Shown here piece by piece: positions 7,833 through 49,542 of a stretch of 49,715 bases of DNA. The translations under genes and the position numbers were made by a program. Origin of the DNA: Haloquadratum walsbyi J07HQW2 (GTDB lineage: Archaea > Halobacteriota > Halobacteria > Halobacteriales > Haloferacaceae). The notes under the pieces were generated by a model that searched no databases, was not told the origin of the DNA, and saw only the letters and a program-made list of their open reading frames with translations. The stretch spans positions 209,016 through 258,730 of the forward strand of contig NZ_KE356561.1 in NCBI RefSeq assembly GCF_000415985.1, written 5' to 3'. Each line of letters opens with the position of its first letter. Within the stretch, counting starts at the first letter, position 1.

Positions 7833-8018
7833 TTATTATCACACACGTTCTTAACTAATGACCGAGTTCAACGTCAATTCCAACTTGAGAATCCAGCCTG
7901 TGTTGCTGAGGATTGCTGCAGAGAGATTCTCACCAGCATATCACAAACAACTGGGCAATCTGCAATCGAATTCCTGCACACAATCGACCGTGATTTAGAG
8001 ATGGATCCACACAATTAG
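7833..8018 (+). pseudogene. Gene-tail fragment, unidentified
   Basis: An open frame without a start codon reads RVQRQFQLENPACVAEDCCR, then EILTSISQTTGQSAIEFLHT and IDRDLEMDPHN before TAG. Its stop overlaps the stop of the rdfA-like gene on the other strand. It looks coding-like, with three closely spaced Cys, but matches no family I know. Confidence 0.3.
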
Positions 8019-8728
8019 TTCTTCAATCGGTGTGCACTTCCAGTGTCTATGGGTTTTGTCTCATCTCCATCTGCGTCTGCACCTGATAACTCAGAGTCGC
8101 TCGCACACTGACACCCGCCTGAGTCAATAAGTCTCTTTGGTGAGCGACGAGCACCACAATCCTGACATGTGACCCAGATTTCGATATTCACTTCATATGA
8201 CCCACCATCGATGACATTATGCTTGATCCACTGTGCCAAGTTGTTTTCCACAATCGCTTGGAGCCGTCCGGCGATTTTTCGCATGTGCGTGAGACTTGAG
8301 GCTGGATTATTAGTTGTTTCGCTGGAGGAGCGTGAGACGTTTCGATGGTCTTTACAGTAATTGTACACAGATTGATATGTGATGAGATCAGCTTCAAGTC
8401 GCTCAACATCGATACCGTCGTGTTTGAGACGCTGTCTGACCTCAGTCTGCATTCCGGCAGTCACGTCATCGTCATCGCCACTCAGAAGTCGATAGATATT
8501 CGCTGCTTCTCCATCAAGCAAATGTGTTGAACTGGCGACCGCAGCCTCAATGATCCGTCTATTCACATGGTCAGCCAGATCCCGCAGACTTTGTTGATCG
8601 TATCCATTCTCTCCGAGCCATCGAGCGACGACTTCATCACCGAGTTCTGAAATATCATATCGATCCGCGACTCGCTCAATTTTGGGTCCGTCCCCACCAC
8701 GGCGGGAGTATGACGATTCCGTACTCAT
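8015..8728 (-). CDS. rdfA: RdfA-family protein (rod-determining factor)
   Basis: This haloarchaeal family includes the factor needed for rod-shaped cells in Haloferax volcanii; many paralogues sit on mobile elements. Evidence is the family layout: an N-terminal KIERVADRYDISELGDEVVA, then WLGENGYDQQSLRDLADHVN with RRIIEAAV, a central DGEAANIYRLLSGDDDDVTA block, an RLKHDGIDVERLEADLITYQ block, and a C-terminal zinc-ribbon-like part with CQDCG and a CQC pair. I prefer the start at 8728 (MSTESSYSRR) over the upstream ATG at 8749, because a TATA-like box at 8755-8762 would make a leaderless mRNA starting there. It lies upstream of no same-strand gene but in the same accessory block as the ParB-like gene. 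The family call is strong; whether it shapes cells here is unknown. Confidence 0.85.
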   Translation of the reverse strand: MSTESSYSRRGGDGPKIERVADRYDISELGDEVVARWLGENGYDQQSLRDLADHVNRRIIEAAVASSTHLLDGEAANIYRLLSGDDDDVTAGMQTEVRQRLKHDGIDVERLEADLITYQSVYNYCKDHRNVSRSSSETTNNPASSLTHMRKIAGRLQAIVENNLAQWIKHNVIDGGSYEVNIEIWVTCQDCGARRSPKRLIDSGGCQCASDSELSGADADGDETKPIDTGSAHRLKN

Positions 8729-8754
8729 TGCTTTGGGTAAATAATACACATATT

Positions 8755-9989: not shown

Positions 9990-10036
9990 CCTTATGTAAC
10001 ATCTGCCTCTCTCACAAGACAATTTGTTACATAAGG
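9990..10036. repeat. Perfect 12-bp inverted repeat, CCTTATGTAACA arms
   Basis: CCTTATGTAACA (9990-10001) and TGTTACATAAGG (10025-10036) are exact complements separated by 23 bases. The sequence differs from the two palindromes before it, so it is either a different operator or a transcript hairpin. Confidence 0.6.
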
Positions 10037-14864: not shown

Positions 14865-15251
14865 TCAGTATCGTACACTCTCACCGTACTCTCTGACGAG
14901 CGAGTCGGTTAACTCAGATCCATCACACCGTCTAGTAATACATCCAAGGAACCAACCATACTTGCCTGTTGCATCTTTACGACTGTCAAGAATAAATGAC
15001 CACTCACCGTCGTAATTATATTGACCCGCTTGAATCCAGGCTCTGATGAGCTCCGTCTGTTCGACACCCAGTCTGTACTCTTCAGCATCAGGATTCACAT
15101 ACTGCGTTTCAGCAGTATCGATCCCAAACAGCCTCACTCGAGCATTCTTGACCGTTTGAAATTCTTGATCGATCGTGACATCGATTGTATCATCATCAAC
15201 TACGTGAGGGACTTTTGTTCGGTAGTAGAAGGACCCATATTCTCCTGTCAT
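14865..15251 (-). CDS. SNase-like (staphylococcal nuclease family) protein
   Basis: This 128-residue protein matches the thermonuclease/SNc OB-fold. The N-terminus reads VPHVVDDDTIDVTIDQEF, the 'V..VvDGDTi.v' motif with the usual Gly changed to Asp, followed by RVRLFGIDTAE (a catalytic Arg and the Asp/Glu pair) and KDATGKYGWFLGCI, where family members have 'TGkYGR.lg.v'. The second catalytic Arg of 'GRwLg' is Trp here, so activity may be reduced. There is no signal peptide, so it acts inside the cell. It is divergent from the DUF6788 pseudogene, sharing a 115-base promoter region. The first third of this gene and the shared promoter region recur at 26921-27173. Confidence 0.75.
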   Translation of the reverse strand: MTGEYGSFYYRTKVPHVVDDDTIDVTIDQEFQTVKNARVRLFGIDTAETQYVNPDAEEYRLGVEQTELIRAWIQAGQYNYDGEWSFILDSRKDATGKYGWFLGCITRRCDGSELTDSLVREYGESVRY

Positions 15252-15318
15252 TACTCAAGATAGACATCTATCAGTCTGTACCAGTTTTCGTGGTGAGGGA
15301 GACGTATCCACTTTCCGA

Positions 15319-15365
15319 GTCTTAACTAATTTTTTCAACGTAGCTATCAGATGATTAGTTAGGAC
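15319..15365. repeat. 12-bp inverted repeat at the 5' edge of the DUF6788 gene
   Basis: GTCTTAACTAAT (15319-15330) and ATTAGTTAGGAC (15354-15365) pair at 11 of 12 positions around 23 bases. The right arm ends one base before the ATG at 15367. Confidence 0.65.
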
Positions 15366-15366
15366 A

Positions 15367-15719
15367 ATGGATTCAAAACCAGAACCTCCAGAGTCACTTC
15401 CGACGTACGTGATCATGGGGTAGAGCGCTAAGGGGCACAACAACTCGAGGATCTTGCTGAATGGGCGATTGATCTTGCTGAGTATAACCGTCAACCATCA
15501 GCAGAAGAAATTGAAACTGAAACTGAAATTCCAGACGATGCGTCTATCGAAGGATACGATGAACAGATAGGTGGCTGGGTATATACGAAGTATATCGAGT
15601 GTGGGAAAGAGACGTGTCACTGCAAGGAGGAGGGGGGACACGGTCCCTACAGGTATGGCTATTACTACGATGACTCCGGGAATCTAACGTCAGAATATCT
15701 TGGGAAGGTCGCTGAGTGA
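15367..15719 (+). pseudogene. DUF6788-family protein, disrupted
   Basis: The gene starts MDSKPEPPESLPTYVI, shifts frame near 15417, passes a nonsense codon just after (GVER then stop), and continues cleanly AQQLEDLAEWAIDLAEYNRQ to the end. The C-terminus holds the family signature: KYIECGKETCHCKEEGGHGP, then YRYGYYYDDSGNLTSEYLGK. That Cys-rich plus 'HGPY.Y.Y....g....eYlGk' motif marks a small haloarchaeal/bacterial family of unknown function often found by mobile elements. It is bracketed exactly by inverted repeats at 15319-15365 and 15723-15766. A second, severely cut copy starts at 27156. A single-base correction plus one stop would restore the frame. Confidence 0.65.
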
Positions 15720-15722
15720 TCA

Positions 15723-15766
15723 TCTTAACTAATATTTTCGATTATTATTAGAGCTATTAGTTAAGA
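15723..15766. repeat. Perfect 12-bp inverted repeat at the 3' edge of the DUF6788 gene
   Basis: TCTTAACTAATA (15723-15734) and TATTAGTTAAGA (15755-15766) are exact complements around 20 bases, starting 4 bases after the stop codon. The arms are the same motif as at the 5' edge. Confidence 0.7.
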
Positions 15767-27042: not shown

Positions 27043-27173
27043 TTCAAAATAGACCTCTATCAGTATGTACCAACTTTCGTGGTGAAGGAAACGTATCGAC
27101 TTCCTGAGTCTTAACTAATTTTTTCAATATAGCTATCAGGTGATTAGTTAGGGCGATGGATTCAAAGCCGGAT
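26921..27173. repeat. Duplicate of the SNase/DUF6788 divergent-promoter segment
   Basis: About 250 bases match 15121-15383 at high identity, in the same orientation. They cover the start of the SNase gene, the shared promoter region, the TTAACTAAT/ATTAGTTA inverted repeat (27108-27154) and the first codons of the DUF6788 gene (MDSKP at 27156). The match ends abruptly at both sides. Confidence 0.75.
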
Positions 27174-30010: not shown

Positions 30011-31864
30011 TTAGTTCTCGACAATCTCTTCAAGATCTTCTTTAATCGTTTTAGCTACAGCGTTTTTAGCGACAACTGAAGCATTGGTATTGCCGTTCTC
30101 AATCTCAGCTTCTGTTGTCTTATACATCATTTGTATCTGATTATACACGCTCTCAAGTTTTTCTTGAGACTGACTAGATGGAGATGATTCATCTGCTACA
30201 GTTGATTCAGTAGATGTCCTAGAGTCTGTTTGTGTAGCTTCCTGTCCAGTAACGGTGTCTTGTGTGCTTGCTTGAATAGACTCTTGTTCAGTAGTATCTT
30301 GAGCACTTGCCTCTGAAGTTTTTTGCTCAGTAGTCGTCTCCTGTGTGTTCGCCTGTACAGTCTCCTGAGTCTCCTGTTCAGTAGCAGTCTCTTGAGTGCT
30401 TACTTCTGTAGTTTCTTCTTGTGTGGATTCTTCTGTACTAATTCTTTCAAGACGGTCTTGATACGAACTTAGCGCTGTTTTTCGATCATCTTGTTCTATC
30501 GCCTGTTCAATGACAGATGCAGAATCTACTTTTGTAATGTTAGATCGAATATCTCGAACTTGAATTGCCTTCACGTCATTAGCCTTTACAGCTTCAGCAA
30601 GTCGTTCTGGGAACGTTTCATCAGAGATTTCATCTCCTTCAGGTTCAGCGTATGACGGCTTAGGACTTGGTGTGTCTTTTATTGTTTCTACCTTTGTTCC
30701 AGATTGAATATCTTTTATCAAATCTATATACTCGTCCTTCACCATATACACATATGTTTCATGTGTTCCAGCGTGTTCTGATAATACATCATGAGTTCGG
30801 TCAGGTGATTCTGGATCTTGCTCTGCAGCTAACTCATTAACTACAGCCTCTTGTTTCGGCGTGAGATCATTATATTCTTCTGCGACTGAACTTGGCACTT
30901 CATATCGTGCATATTCTGCATTAATCACCTCTGTGTCATCGTCTTGAGTATTCCTCTCTACTTCTGGTTCTGGTTCTGACTCTACGTTGTCACCAGTCTC
31001 ATCGTCCGGTTCCTCAAGTCCAATATCAACTCGACGATTATGAATTGCGTCTTGATATTGTTCTCTTACTTTCTTCGGATATCGTGAGTCACAGTCTACT
31101 TGCTCTGCGACTTCCTCATTGCTTTTTGTTGGATCCCGTGCAATTGTGTCTAAGACTTCGAATTGAAGCTCTGTTAAGTTACTATACTCTCTATCTTCTG
31201 GGATATCGTATTGTTGTGACATGAGTTTCCTCTTGTATGATTGTGCTATGTGACCGTAATCATCTAGCACTTGTTGAGGGTACGTATTACTAACGCCCGC
31301 TTTTTCTGCAATCGACTTGTTATCTTGATCTGGATCTTCAGCGTATACTTCAATAACTGACTGTTGTTTCTCTGTCAGGTCTTCAAACATTTTAGATTTA
31401 TCTTTACTAGAGTCACGTTCATGTGATTTTCGCTGAATATCCAACGCTTCAACGATTATACTATATACCGTATTGTAATCGAGTTTTGAAGAAGAATATC
31501 CGTACGTTCCTGTTGCGATTTCCTCATTAACCTGTTCTTTGATTTCTGAAAATGACTTATGAGGGTTTTTTACCGCCGTTTGAACAATAAATTCATCTTG
31601 ATCAGACGTGACTGACGAAAGATTCGATACATCAATTTCGTCAAGACGTTGTAACTGTGAACGACCACCAATTCTCTCAATAATCTCTCCAGAATCAGAC
31701 AATCCATTTACCTTAGTTTCAGGCATGTAAATATACTCTAATTGATGATCTGAGTCTGTAGAATGGCTCATATGTGCTCTGACAATACCCTCTTTAGTCG
31801 CCTCAAATTCGCAAATAGGACACTGATATTTAGCTATGTTGGAACTTTCCTGTGTAACTGTCAT
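30011..31864 (-). CDS. Zinc finger plus triple helix-turn-helix protein with Thr/Gln/Glu-rich tail
   Basis: This 617-residue acidic protein has an unusual build. Residues 14-40 are a C2H2-type finger (CPIC then HMSH). Three homologous 40-residue HTH units follow at about 162-203, 229-270 and 333-379; each starts LT-x-K/L-Q and reaches a Y-P or Y-V ... V/L-x-x-x-Y end, for example LTEKQQSVIEVYAEDPDQDN and LTELQFEVLDTIARDPTKSN. Residues 473-560 are a low-complexity TQE(T/A)TTEQ-type tract, and the end is helical. The build suggests a multi-site DNA-binding or recruiting protein. A TATA-like TATATAAAT at 31907-31915 would leave a leader of about 20 bases. I know no characterised counterpart. Confidence 0.8.
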   Translation of the reverse strand: MTVTQESSNIAKYQCPICEFEATKEGIVRAHMSHSTDSDHQLEYIYMPETKVNGLSDSGEIIERIGGRSQLQRLDEIDVSNLSSVTSDQDEFIVQTAVKNPHKSFSEIKEQVNEEIATGTYGYSSSKLDYNTVYSIIVEALDIQRKSHERDSSKDKSKMFEDLTEKQQSVIEVYAEDPDQDNKSIAEKAGVSNTYPQQVLDDYGHIAQSYKRKLMSQQYDIPEDREYSNLTELQFEVLDTIARDPTKSNEEVAEQVDCDSRYPKKVREQYQDAIHNRRVDIGLEEPDDETGDNVESEPEPEVERNTQDDDTEVINAEYARYEVPSSVAEEYNDLTPKQEAVVNELAAEQDPESPDRTHDVLSEHAGTHETYVYMVKDEYIDLIKDIQSGTKVETIKDTPSPKPSYAEPEGDEISDETFPERLAEAVKANDVKAIQVRDIRSNITKVDSASVIEQAIEQDDRKTALSSYQDRLERISTEESTQEETTEVSTQETATEQETQETVQANTQETTTEQKTSEASAQDTTEQESIQASTQDTVTGQEATQTDSRTSTESTVADESSPSSQSQEKLESVYNQIQMMYKTTEAEIENGNTNASVVAKNAVAKTIKEDLEEIVEN

Positions 31865-33462: not shown

Positions 33463-34273
33463 TCATAACCTGATGAGATCATATGATTGTCTCCGACTGT
33501 CTCGTATGAGATTACTCAGAAACCACTCAATGTGTTTTCTTACCGTTGCAACGGACAGTGCATATGGAGTAATAAGGTTAGCTGGCTCGTAGTTGGTGTT
33601 CCCGCTGCAACGGTGAATAGAACTGCTATTAGAAGACGTATAACGGTACTTCTCATCTTCTGAGTCTGAAATCGGCGAGAAAGGGAGGTATCTCTCCGCT
33701 TGTCCTGTAACGATCCTGATACCGATGTTCTCGATTGGATCAAATCTTCTGTCGCGTCATGGGGAGGCATTGTTACAAGAAAAAACAGAGAAGATTGATC
33801 ATCCTCATCATACCCGTAATTTGTCGAACTCAATGATCCGAATTCCAGTCTCATTGATCCAGTCCGTCGAGAGCTCATATCCAATTCGATCCCCGAGAGT
33901 TCAATTCACTCGTAGTGCTTGCACCAGATACCTCTCGTCGGCTGATATACCTCGCCCCTCCGATGCAGCTCAGTAAAGACGTCATCAACAATCGGTCGTG
34001 GCGAGTTGTCTCGTCTGTCAATTCTTTCCGCGTATATTCATCATCTAACTCCAACTCCAACTCATCAAGCGCTGCTTTGACTTCCTAGTGCATCTCATCA
34101 ATTATATCGTCAACAATTGTTCGCGGTCCATTCGTGCGATTTCTCAGTTCTTCTCGCGTGAGCTCAGTATTAATTTCATCAACTGCTTTTCTCACTCTTT
34201 GGTGATACATTGGGTAATTCGTGACAATACACTCATCAAATGTGACTGTTGTTGTTATCGTCCGATGAACCAA
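33463..34273 (-). pseudogene. Heavily decayed gene with tandem helical repeats
   Basis: The minus strand starts MVHRTITTTVTFDECIVTNY and shows two repeat-like units: RKAVDEINTELTREELRNRT, and after a TAG, EVKAALDELELELDDEYTRK followed by ELTDETTRHDRLLMTSLL. Then come RYLVQALRVN, a stop, TLGDRIGYELSTDWINETGI and, in the same frame beyond more stops, ENIGIRIVTGQAERYLPFSP and ITPYALSVATVRKHIEWFLS. At least four stops or shifts break it. The original was perhaps 260 residues and soluble. I do not recognise the family. Confidence 0.45.
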
Positions 34274-37971: not shown

Positions 37972-38716
37972 ATGAATAGCAACTATTGTGCGGCTCCCGT
38001 CCTATACCAAATTCTGAGTGAATCGCCCGGAGAGTTCGACAGCGAAGTGCCAGAAGACTACTGTGGATACACATTCCCAGGATTCTACGAGTATTGTAAT
38101 TGATTATCGAGGAAATATTGCCCAGCAGCTTAGTTGTATTTGGAACTCTTTATGTGACAGTGACCGATATGTATTCCATGCTGACCCCGGTAAAACTGAA
38201 TGCAAGGGTCAACTGCTGAAAAATAATGACTGGGTCGGTGGGTCGTTAGATGGCGCTATTCTACCGGGTCAGTTTGCAGACCATCTAGACCTTTCATCGA
38301 TTTCCCTGTTGAGAGATACTGACCTCCCAGGGGCTAGCCTGGATGAGACCGACTTCTCGGAGGCTAGTCTGTTTGGTGCCAACTCAAAGAGGCTGACCTG
38401 CTCAATGCCAACCCCTCTGAGGTATGCTCAACAAACACTGAGTTTCATGAGACGAAGTTGCGCGAAGCCGACCTGAAAGAGGCGGATTTAGAGGGCGCAG
38501 AGTTCGATGACGCGGAGTTGACAGAGGTTAGGCTAGCGAGAAGCGATTGTGAGAGCACGGTGTTTGTCCGAGCGAATTTAACGAGCGACACTAGAGAATG
38601 CTGATCTAACTGGAGCCAACTTTTCACAGCCATACCTGTATCAGACGAGACTGGATGGCGCGCAGATCAGTAACCATACACAGTTTTTTACAGGTGGGAT
38701 ATCGGCGATACAGTGA
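37972..38716 (+). pseudogene. Pentapeptide-repeat protein, multiply frameshifted
   Basis: It begins MNSNYCAAPVLYQILSESPG with a CGYTFPGFYEYC segment, shifts frame near 38098, and continues CIWNSLCDSDRYVFHADPGK, the Cys/His-rich N-terminal domain of haloarchaeal pentapeptide proteins. The repeats follow: LPGASLDETDFSEASLFGAN; after a second shift EADLKEADLEGAEFDDAELT; and after a third shift LENADLTGANFSQPYLYQTR. An intact protein would be a membrane-independent beta-helix of about 245 residues. Compare the smaller relic at 12501-12749. Confidence 0.65.
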
Positions 38717-47861: not shown

Positions 47862-48260
47862 GTGGAACGGTTGCTGGAACTGGGTGAAGAGCCCGAAGTT
47901 TTATTCTTAGATACTGAACCCGGAGATGTGCGGACCATGGTACAGTTGAAATCCGAAGCAGTCGATCCCGATGTTGGACCGTTACAGATCGACGACAGCG
48001 GTACGATCCAATTCGAATGGGGCCGGGTCACATCGAGAGAGAAGAACGACCTGACGCTCGAATTTGTCACCGAGGCTGCACTACGGTTCGAGGATGTCGA
48101 GAGGTACGAATTTGAACAGCAATTAGAAGCTGTCGAGGAGGAGGGCGACTTTGACGACCCGACACTCCAGATAGCCGACCTCTCCGAGGAAGAGATGGGG
48201 AAACTCGTCGACGGTGTCCGGACGTTCCTCCGGCAGGCTCGCGAACTCCACGATGGCTGA
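47862..48260 (+). CDS. Uncharacterised protein between mcrB and mcrC
   Basis: I do not recognise this family. From a GTG at 47862 the 132 residues read VERLLELGEEPEVLFLDTEP, then TIQFEWGRVTSREKNDLTLE and FEQQLEAVEEEGDFDDPTLQ, ending in a helical LVDGVRTFLRQARELHDG. The same frame extends upstream with coding-like sequence (IDTFRLRVNRTLGPDAYRRV) to 47770 but has no start there. So either an unusual start or a second frameshift joins it to the McrB motor's C-terminus. Its end overlaps the mcrC start by 8 bases, proving a shared operon. It may be a specificity or coupling part of the complex. Confidence 0.65.
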   Translation: MERLLELGEEPEVLFLDTEPGDVRTMVQLKSEAVDPDVGPLQIDDSGTIQFEWGRVTSREKNDLTLEFVTEAALRFEDVERYEFEQQLEAVEEEGDFDDPTLQIADLSEEEMGKLVDGVRTFLRQARELHDG

Positions 48261-49542
48261 CCTCACACAGTTCGGGCAACTCGGCCCGGCAGTCGACTCC
48301 GAAGCCTCGGATGGCACGGTCCCGCCGAGCGACCCGATCGAACTACAAGAACACGACTCGACCGATCCCTTCGAGATTAGTTCGGAGGACGCAGAGTTCC
48401 TCGATCGGGTGACTGCCGACGGCTCAGCTCCGTTCGAGGTGACCTACACAAGCGACGGTCGTGTTCGTATTCACACCGGGTCCAACGTGGGCGTGCTAAC
48501 GCTCCCGAGCGGGACTCAGGTCGAGGTGACACCGAAAGCGTCGGTAACGAGTCTGCTCTGGACGCTGCAGTATGCCTTCGACACGCCAGTCGACTCGATG
48601 GGGTACAAAACCAAGTTCTCGACGGACTCATCCTTTTTTGATGCCATCGGTGTCCTGTTCTGGAACGAGCTCACGACGGTACTCGACCAGGGACTCCATC
48701 GCGACTACGTCCGAACCCAGGCGGTCGAGGACCACGTCCGGGGTCAAATCGACGTACAGAGACAGCTCCAGCGGCCAGGACCGCAACCGACTGACTTCGC
48801 TGTCGAGTACGACGAGTTCACGACCGATACCATACTGAATCGAGCGGTTCTCTCGGCCACTCGCGCTCTCGTGCGGCTGGTCCGTGATCCGACTCTAGCG
48901 GGGCGTTTGCGACATGAGGAGCAACGCCTTCGCCAGTTCACCTCCGTCCGTCCAGTGTCGCTGGAGGCAGTCAACCGGATCGAACTTTCGCGGTTGAACG
49001 AGCACTACGAGATGCTACTGGACCTGACAAGGACGGTCCTCTCTAGAGAGTTCTTTGAGGATATCACAGCCGGCGAAAATCGTGCGCTGGCGCTTTTTGT
49101 CGATATGAACAATGTCTACGAGCGCATCGTCGAACGAGCATGCCGTGCGGCGGCGTCGGAACTGGGCGAACTTGACGTTGAGGGACAGGGCTCGATTCCG
49201 ACCGTCGTCGAGGGCCCGCACGCGAGATCGATGCGCCCGGATGTCATTGTCAGAGGCCCCGACGAACAGGCAGTCGCCGTCCTTGACGCGAAGTGGAAAC
49301 CTGGCGTGTCAGCTAGTGATGTCTACCAGCTCACGTCATACATATTCGCACTAGAGACCGATGGGGCGCTCGTGTATCACGGCGGTTATGAACATGACGG
49401 CGAGGAGTCCGTGGTCGACAGCGAGTATTCACTTCGGTCGGTCGCTCTAAACACTAACCCCTCTGTCGACTCCTATGGAGATTACGTTGACGCACTCGAA
49501 CGAAGCGCTCGGGGGTATCTGTCGAGTGTGATTCGAGAGTAG
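48253..49542 (+). CDS. mcrC: McrC-type nuclease subunit (system 2)
   Basis: This 429-residue protein is a McrC. From the chosen ATG (MADLTQFGQLGPAVDSEA) it has an N-terminal beta domain ending GVLTLPSGTQVEVTPKAS, the McrC 'l.WTLQYAFdtp' region, VRGQIDVQRQLQRPG, RLNEHYEMLLDLTRTVLS and DMNNVYERIVERACR (the 'fDMn.LfE..v' motif). The PD-(D/E)xK centre is RPDVIV at about 328-333 and LDAKWKPG at about 344-351, followed by DVYQLTSYIFAL as in McrC. McrC activates McrB GTPase and cuts DNA at modified sites. The start overlaps the preceding gene by 8 bases. A GTG at 48214 would add 13 residues but is less likely. It appears intact. Confidence 0.87.
   Translation: MADLTQFGQLGPAVDSEASDGTVPPSDPIELQEHDSTDPFEISSEDAEFLDRVTADGSAPFEVTYTSDGRVRIHTGSNVGVLTLPSGTQVEVTPKASVTSLLWTLQYAFDTPVDSMGYKTKFSTDSSFFDAIGVLFWNELTTVLDQGLHRDYVRTQAVEDHVRGQIDVQRQLQRPGPQPTDFAVEYDEFTTDTILNRAVLSATRALVRLVRDPTLAGRLRHEEQRLRQFTSVRPVSLEAVNRIELSRLNEHYEMLLDLTRTVLSREFFEDITAGENRALALFVDMNNVYERIVERACRAAASELGELDVEGQGSIPTVVEGPHARSMRPDVIVRGPDEQAVAVLDAKWKPGVSASDVYQLTSYIFALETDGALVYHGGYEHDGEESVVDSEYSLRSVALNTNPSVDSYGDYVDALERSARGYLSSVIRE

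Follow-up and report, generated by a model that had tools for sequence, protein, structure and literature searches.

The window, a 49,715-nucleotide stretch of the Haloquadratum walsbyi J07HQW2 genome, contains a gene of the DUF6788 family (PF20586; 15367..15719, + strand) lying between two inverted repeats, or dyads, to which no strand is assigned. The left dyad (15319..15365) pairs GTCTTAACTAATT with GATTAGTTAGGAC, has CTTAACTAAT arms at 15321-15330 and 15354-15363, and stops one base short of the ATG at 15367; its position, which matches that of the dyads of 83/85 superfamily genes, marks it as a putative operator or binding site at the start codon. The right dyad (15723..15766) pairs TCTTAACTAATA with TATTAGTTAAGA, again with CTTAACTAAT arms, and its core begins 4 nt after the TGA stop codon at 15717-15719. 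An earlier note on this DNA had described just such a bracketing, which our analysis confirms, but the bracketed gene, although its PF20586 match is in place, is broken. The ATG frame ends at a TAG (15421-15423), the homologous frame picks up after a shift, and a TAA sits ahead of GAQQLEDL in the resumed frame; with one frameshift and one internal stop, this is not an intact DUF6788 gene. The reading-frame remnant scores 29.7 bits against a PF20586 gathering score of 27.2 (E 7.7e-7) and matches the A2 profile at E 1.9e-31, with one TAA inside the match. The arm 8-mer TAACTAAT recurs in three window dyads, whereas Markov-shuffled windows never held more than one dyad per arm.

A further dyad (27110..27152, no strand) lies inside an imperfect duplicate of window positions ~15121-15384 (83% identity over 263 columns) in which only the gene start is left. 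The second copy of the left repeat with the gene start that the earlier note placed at 27108-27170 is present, but as one end of a decayed duplication of ~260 bp, which takes in upstream DNA and only the first codons of DUF6788 and ends off the dyad. A lone CTTAACTAAT half-site without a partner arm (7850..7859, + strand) is possibly due to chance or decay. The earlier note did not mention a dyad that stands alone at 9991..10035 and belongs to a different arm class (CTTATGTA..TACATAAG; no strand; G000:C1:219006-219050 in the window genome, G000). The window also carries tyrosine integrase, RdfA (rod-determining factor A) and McrBC restriction genes (108-710, 8015-8749 and 48214-49542), because of which it looks like a mobile or plasmid-derived island. 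ParA was absent among the 20 window ORFs scanned, so a ParA linkage is unsupported for this island itself, and the window DNA had no match in PLSDB. The locus is a dead remnant, a broken gene with its sites retained, and the part of the chromosome around it has genes of plasmid and virus type.

Elsewhere in the window genome, a further CTTAACTAAT-class dyad stands without a DUF6788 gene (G000:C1:298740-298780), and a broad-profile search found no intact clade-A DUF6788 gene despite the seven CTTATGTA dyads of this genome, the one at 9991..10035 among them. Two of these seven (G000:C1:171791-171835 and 193849-193893; L136 and L137) are 98% identical, spacer included, over the 47-bp site only, and their flanks are otherwise unrelated; it looks as though the site could be copied by itself. 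A second broken DUF6788-like gene (G000:C1:574737-575068; L198, L219) has no dyad that we could see at its start.

The earlier note had proposed a scan for its inverted pair, and among 99 related genomes exact CTTAACTAAT dyads occur in the window genome only. We dropped the reading of the window dyad as a one-off once other arm classes were seen upstream of DUF6788 relatives. Relatives were missed by a pattern search that started from the window protein alone and were found with an alignment of relatives; the same pattern method returned none from Viral_contigs, though phages phiH and phiCh1 do carry DUF6788. The family is present in 29/148 genomes of the host family and at 48 loci in a second collection, and in all but incomplete copies a dyad (39-52 bp, with two inverted arms of 8-13 bp and a spacer of 20-30 bp) lies right at the start codon, with arms CCTTATGTA, CTTACCAAAC or CTTACCTAAC. 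A broader profile extended the set to cysteine-less subfamilies, which lie outside every Pfam and NCBIfam model, and start dyads occur there too, with arms AGTTACCCCAC and TTAACCAACA. Altogether 83 of the 85 superfamily genes have a dyad at the start codon of the gene or its operon, against ~1.3 expected from shuffles, a count inflated by related members and in which phiH and Tunicatimonas enter through a dyad ahead of a short operon whose last gene is DUF6788. The DUF6788 gene of Rhodothermus pRMAR01, which adjoins a replication initiator gene, has no clear dyad. At the level of genomes, CTTATGTA or CTTACCAA dyads occur in 26/29 genomes with PF20586 compared with 15/119 of the others (Fisher 2.5e-15), and 13 of these 15 have broader-profile superfamily matches, several directly adjoining a dyad. 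DUF6788 genes lacking the repeats, which the earlier note had named as the contrary finding, were not what the relatives presented, although its arm sequence is not universal and each lineage has its own.

The arms vary with DUF6788 lineage (CTTATGTA, CTTACCAA, CTTATCAA, CTTGTGTA, TTACCCCAC, TTAACCAAC and CTTAACTA). Mapped on the protein tree, arm class requires 16 changes, compared with a mean of 35.7 after shuffling and with none of 200 shuffles as low; because the alignment has few columns and related rows, the tree shows clustering of arm classes rather than each event. The core-to-core span is nearly fixed within a class (46 bp in 29/39 CTTATG genes, 44 in 17/21 CTTACC genes and 41 in 8/8 TTAACCAAC genes), while the spacers within one replicon differ in sequence and often in length. 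The CTTATGTA or CTTGTGTA arms of archaeal carriers are also those of the DUF6788 genes in the bacteria Leptolyngbya and Tunicatimonas, and DUF6788 is the only visible factor common to the archaeal and bacterial replicons with dyads. Leptolyngbya plasmid1 has 10 half-sites in 16 kb against 0.23 expected, several of them just ahead of DUF6788-parA-parB, and on the Tunicatimonas plasmid a 44-bp dyad lies 9 nt before a two-gene DUF6788 operon that is followed by repL and parA.

The fitting of the gene between two dyads also recurs in unrelated replicons. Dyads flank it on both sides in Halorubrum (L067-L069), Halovenus (L073), a Halobacteriales archaeon (L074), G127, Halocatena (CP109786 and CP110250) and Halococcus (CP095010), and in Cyanobacteria on Leptolyngbya plasmid2 and L. 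boryana pLBX; downstream dyads were seen, among others, in L069, L073, L166, L170, L176, L227 and L229. In Halorubrum (L067:110-1156, L068 and L069) a small zinc-ribbon ORF, DUF6788 and both dyads form a repeat unit of ~1.05 kb with sharp ends and differing surroundings.

Many further copies stand alone. We counted 10 dyads on H. walsbyi PL100, four on phiCh1, four on phiH (with one mismatch allowed), four on CP109786, three on CP034146 and two on CP087725, and shuffles of PL100, phiCh1 and CP109786 gave at most 1-2. In CP095010, exact 8-mer arms gave no recurrent cognate sites, which the other replicons do have. By the annotation of six replicons, 27/27 dyads are intergenic, and at least six of the 27 lie between convergent genes (PL100 43627 and 50059, phiH 38206, phiCh1 37643, CP109786 15936 and 34830). 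Some dyads are near repH, and one on PL100 is 11 nt before a gene. All four dyad positions match between phiH and phiCh1, with arms exactly 37 bp apart in 8/8 although the spacers differ; in both phages one dyad is ahead of parA and one ahead of the DUF6788 gene or its operon. The annotated phiH T8 start (31672), upstream of gp50-gp51 (DUF6788), falls within a dyad right arm (31668-31678), and the dyad near parA is at least 49 bp upstream of the annotated T7 start. Inversion 2, by which phiH and phiCh1 differ (reported in PMC6210493), has ParA and DUF6788 inside, is bounded on both sides by dyads and lies near int2; the bounding dyads are 31631-31678 and 34078-34125 in record L156, and 31809-31856 and 33589-33636 in record L157. 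The plasmid NZ_CP034942.1 (L168/L169) has TTAACCAAC-class dyads at 2074-2114, 37992-38030 and 56590-56630 and no subfamily-D gene, and their cognate protein may act from another replicon.

ParA was a recurrent companion, with a family match in 15/15 DUF6788 records, but because ParA is common on plasmids this is only moderate evidence of a link. ParA occurs on 216 plasmids against 61 with a DUF6788 match, and haloarchaeal ParA has a conserved small downstream gene of its own; DUF6788 therefore cannot be its only partner. The haloarchaeal DUF6788 gene is usually not adjacent to parA. On the sole control plasmid, Natrinema CP084477, which has ParA and an integrase and lacks DUF6788, no recurrent dyad was found in the first 50 kb. 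Two features of a ParA-linked partition system, ParA on the same replicon and recurrent cognate cis sites, are present.

Judged by sequence, there is a widespread pairing of a small plasmid protein, DUF6788, with its own matching DNA site in haloarchaea, their viruses and some bacteria. The dyads and gene of the window are a real observation, yet one decayed example of this general pairing. The sequence evidence covers the dyads, their recurrence, the lineage-specific arms, the intergenic position and the co-occurrence with ParA. We propose that DUF6788 and its cysteine-less relatives would be small proteins, encoded by plasmids and plasmid-like viruses, that bind DNA at specific sites, with one dyad type per lineage. 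DUF6788 very likely binds its dyad, in which two inverted half-sites would be separated by ~3 to 3.5 helical turns. The dyad at the start codon of its own gene would overlap the core promoter, and we consider autorepression through this copy likely; the earlier note's suggestion of a self-regulated unit gains support from the dyads at start codons, the lineage-linked arms and the phiH T8 start inside a right arm. T8 is annotated as constitutive, so in phiH the repression would have to be incomplete or depend on conditions. The additional intergenic dyads of the replicon would then work with its ParA as centromere-like sites of partition or maintenance, for which we see about an even chance. 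DUF6788 and its dyads probably assist the upkeep of plasmids and viral genomes and their distribution to daughter cells, and we lean slightly towards the combined reading of dyad binding, autorepression and partition or maintenance through scattered copies.

The strongest competitor is that DUF6788 is a replicon-wide transcriptional regulator and the dyads are operators only, with partition uninvolved. The dyads at the start codons of DUF6788 genes, those upstream of parA in both phages, the copy just before a PL100 gene and the T8 start within a dyad arm would all fit such a regulator. Most of the extra dyads, however, are away from gene starts, those between convergent ends have no annotated gene beginning there, and the phiH parA dyad is well upstream of the T7 start, so that we regard this explanation as rather unlikely.

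That the dyads serve recombination, so that a gene flanked by two of them could move or invert as a cassette, is improbable; a cassette or mobile unit was what the earlier note had supposed. The phage inversion reported in PMC6210493, whose ends coincide with dyads next to int2, is a real hint in this direction. The dyad-bracketed gene of several lineages, the two window-genome dyads that are alike over the site only, and the similarity of DUF6788 copies, whose limits are often the left dyad's outer edge on one side and the stop codon on the other, point the same way. Overlap regions of tyrosine recombinases, however, do not typically vary as the spacers within one replicon do. A tyrosine recombinase has no match in 4/15 DUF6788 records and only a sub-threshold one in a fifth record, and most dyads are stand-alone, intergenic and far from DUF6788 genes, in positions kept between phiH and phiCh1. 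A search for empty sites bounded by a dyad found none, and both the window duplication and the homology with the related genome G010 break off away from the dyads. A likeness to integron attC sites was also set aside, as the spacers vary and there is no integron-type organisation.

Slightly less probable still is that the dyads bind another protein of the replicon (a ParA partner, Orc1 or RepH), with DUF6788 as a passenger. ParA does always co-occur in the records and some dyads are near repH, but archaea, Cyanobacteria and Bacteroidota differ in their replication genes and yet have the dyad where the DUF6788 gene or operon starts, arm class tracks the DUF6788 tree, and the Natrinema plasmid with ParA and integrase shows no recurrent dyad. 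That the dyads are RNA hairpins, leaders or terminators of the DUF6788 transcript, is very improbable: four of them fold as RNA with z-scores of -2.9, -4.75, -1.5 and -5.0, as any perfect dyad would, but the loops are 20-30 nt, sites also occur at positions outside transcripts, and the left arm of the phiH dyad is not transcribed, because the annotated T8 start is inside the right arm.

Possible homology to the AspA or SegB family was looked for in sequence and fold. The AlphaFold model of the L042 protein (36.4 bits against the PF20586 gathering score of 27.2; pLDDT 80.4, pTM 0.62) predicts two N-terminal helices followed by a C-terminal antiparallel sheet with a C-x4-C-x-C..HGPY motif. Structure comparison of the model with Foldseek and VIA gave no usable or confident fold match and no convincing solved DNA-binding fold (best Z 3.4); weak matches to integrase arm-binding domains (3jtz and 3rmp, Z 2.5) were discounted as evidence. 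A PDB profile search returned designed proteins only (E 1e-5 and worse), and none of six members scanned has a Pfam domain of the ParB-CTPase family. These comparisons gave no support for membership in a known partition family, and DUF6788 probably works like an autoregulated, replicon-specific site-binding module, probably in partition. More tentatively, it could stand for a class of small centromere-binding proteins, many of them with Cys/His, that is new, spans both domains and is unrelated to ParB, AspA and SegB; such proteins would act with ParA in Cyanobacteria, Bacteroidota, haloarchaea and haloarchaeal viruses, and their dyad specificities would diversify between co-resident replicons as incompatibility groups do.

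Our literature search found no paper that names DUF6788, neither an experiment nor a paper on its dyad binding or a partition role, and only unrelated papers for the arm sequences. Nor did we find an account of how plasmids and megaplasmids of haloarchaea, or plasmid-like viruses of the phiH and phiCh1 kind, are partitioned. The present analysis offers a candidate protein, the precise DNA site that goes with it in several specificity classes, and viruses long established as models for testing. It also puts forward a hypothesis of function for a family of unknown function found in both archaea and bacteria, and supplies a natural series of protein and DNA-site specificities that co-evolve.

Bacterial ParABS systems combine a cognate binder, scattered parS copies, autoregulation and replicon-specific specificity, all of which DUF6788 would share. 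It differs in that no ParB-CTPase match was seen and in that Leptolyngbya plasmid1 encodes DUF6788 on top of parA and parB. The L-region of phiH and phiCh1 holds DUF6788 (PhiH1_250, PhiCh1_230, ChaoS9_240) together with ParA, Int2 and RepH, and the passages of PMC6210493 and PMC6471424 that treat it call the DUF6788 protein uncharacterised, do not mention the dyads, and present the region as one of replication, partition and maintenance. SegAB of Sulfolobus likewise has an archaeal DNA-binding protein, palindromic sites by the gene and a ParA-type ATPase, but segB always adjoins segA (reviewed in PMC5120986), whereas DUF6788 is often far from parA. A close parallel in layout comes from AspA-ParB-ParA of Sulfolobus pNOB8, with a small site-specific DNA-binding protein, a palindrome upstream of its own gene that is a putative centromere, and ParA on the replicon; AspA and SegB both have their palindromes upstream of the gene or operon (PMC5120986). 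A winged-HTH protein, AspA recognises a 23-bp palindrome and spreads on DNA (PMC5120986), whereas DUF6788 has a predicted alpha plus beta fold with a Cys/His motif, and its dyad, of 39-52 bp with 20-30 bp between the arms, is present in copies across the replicon.
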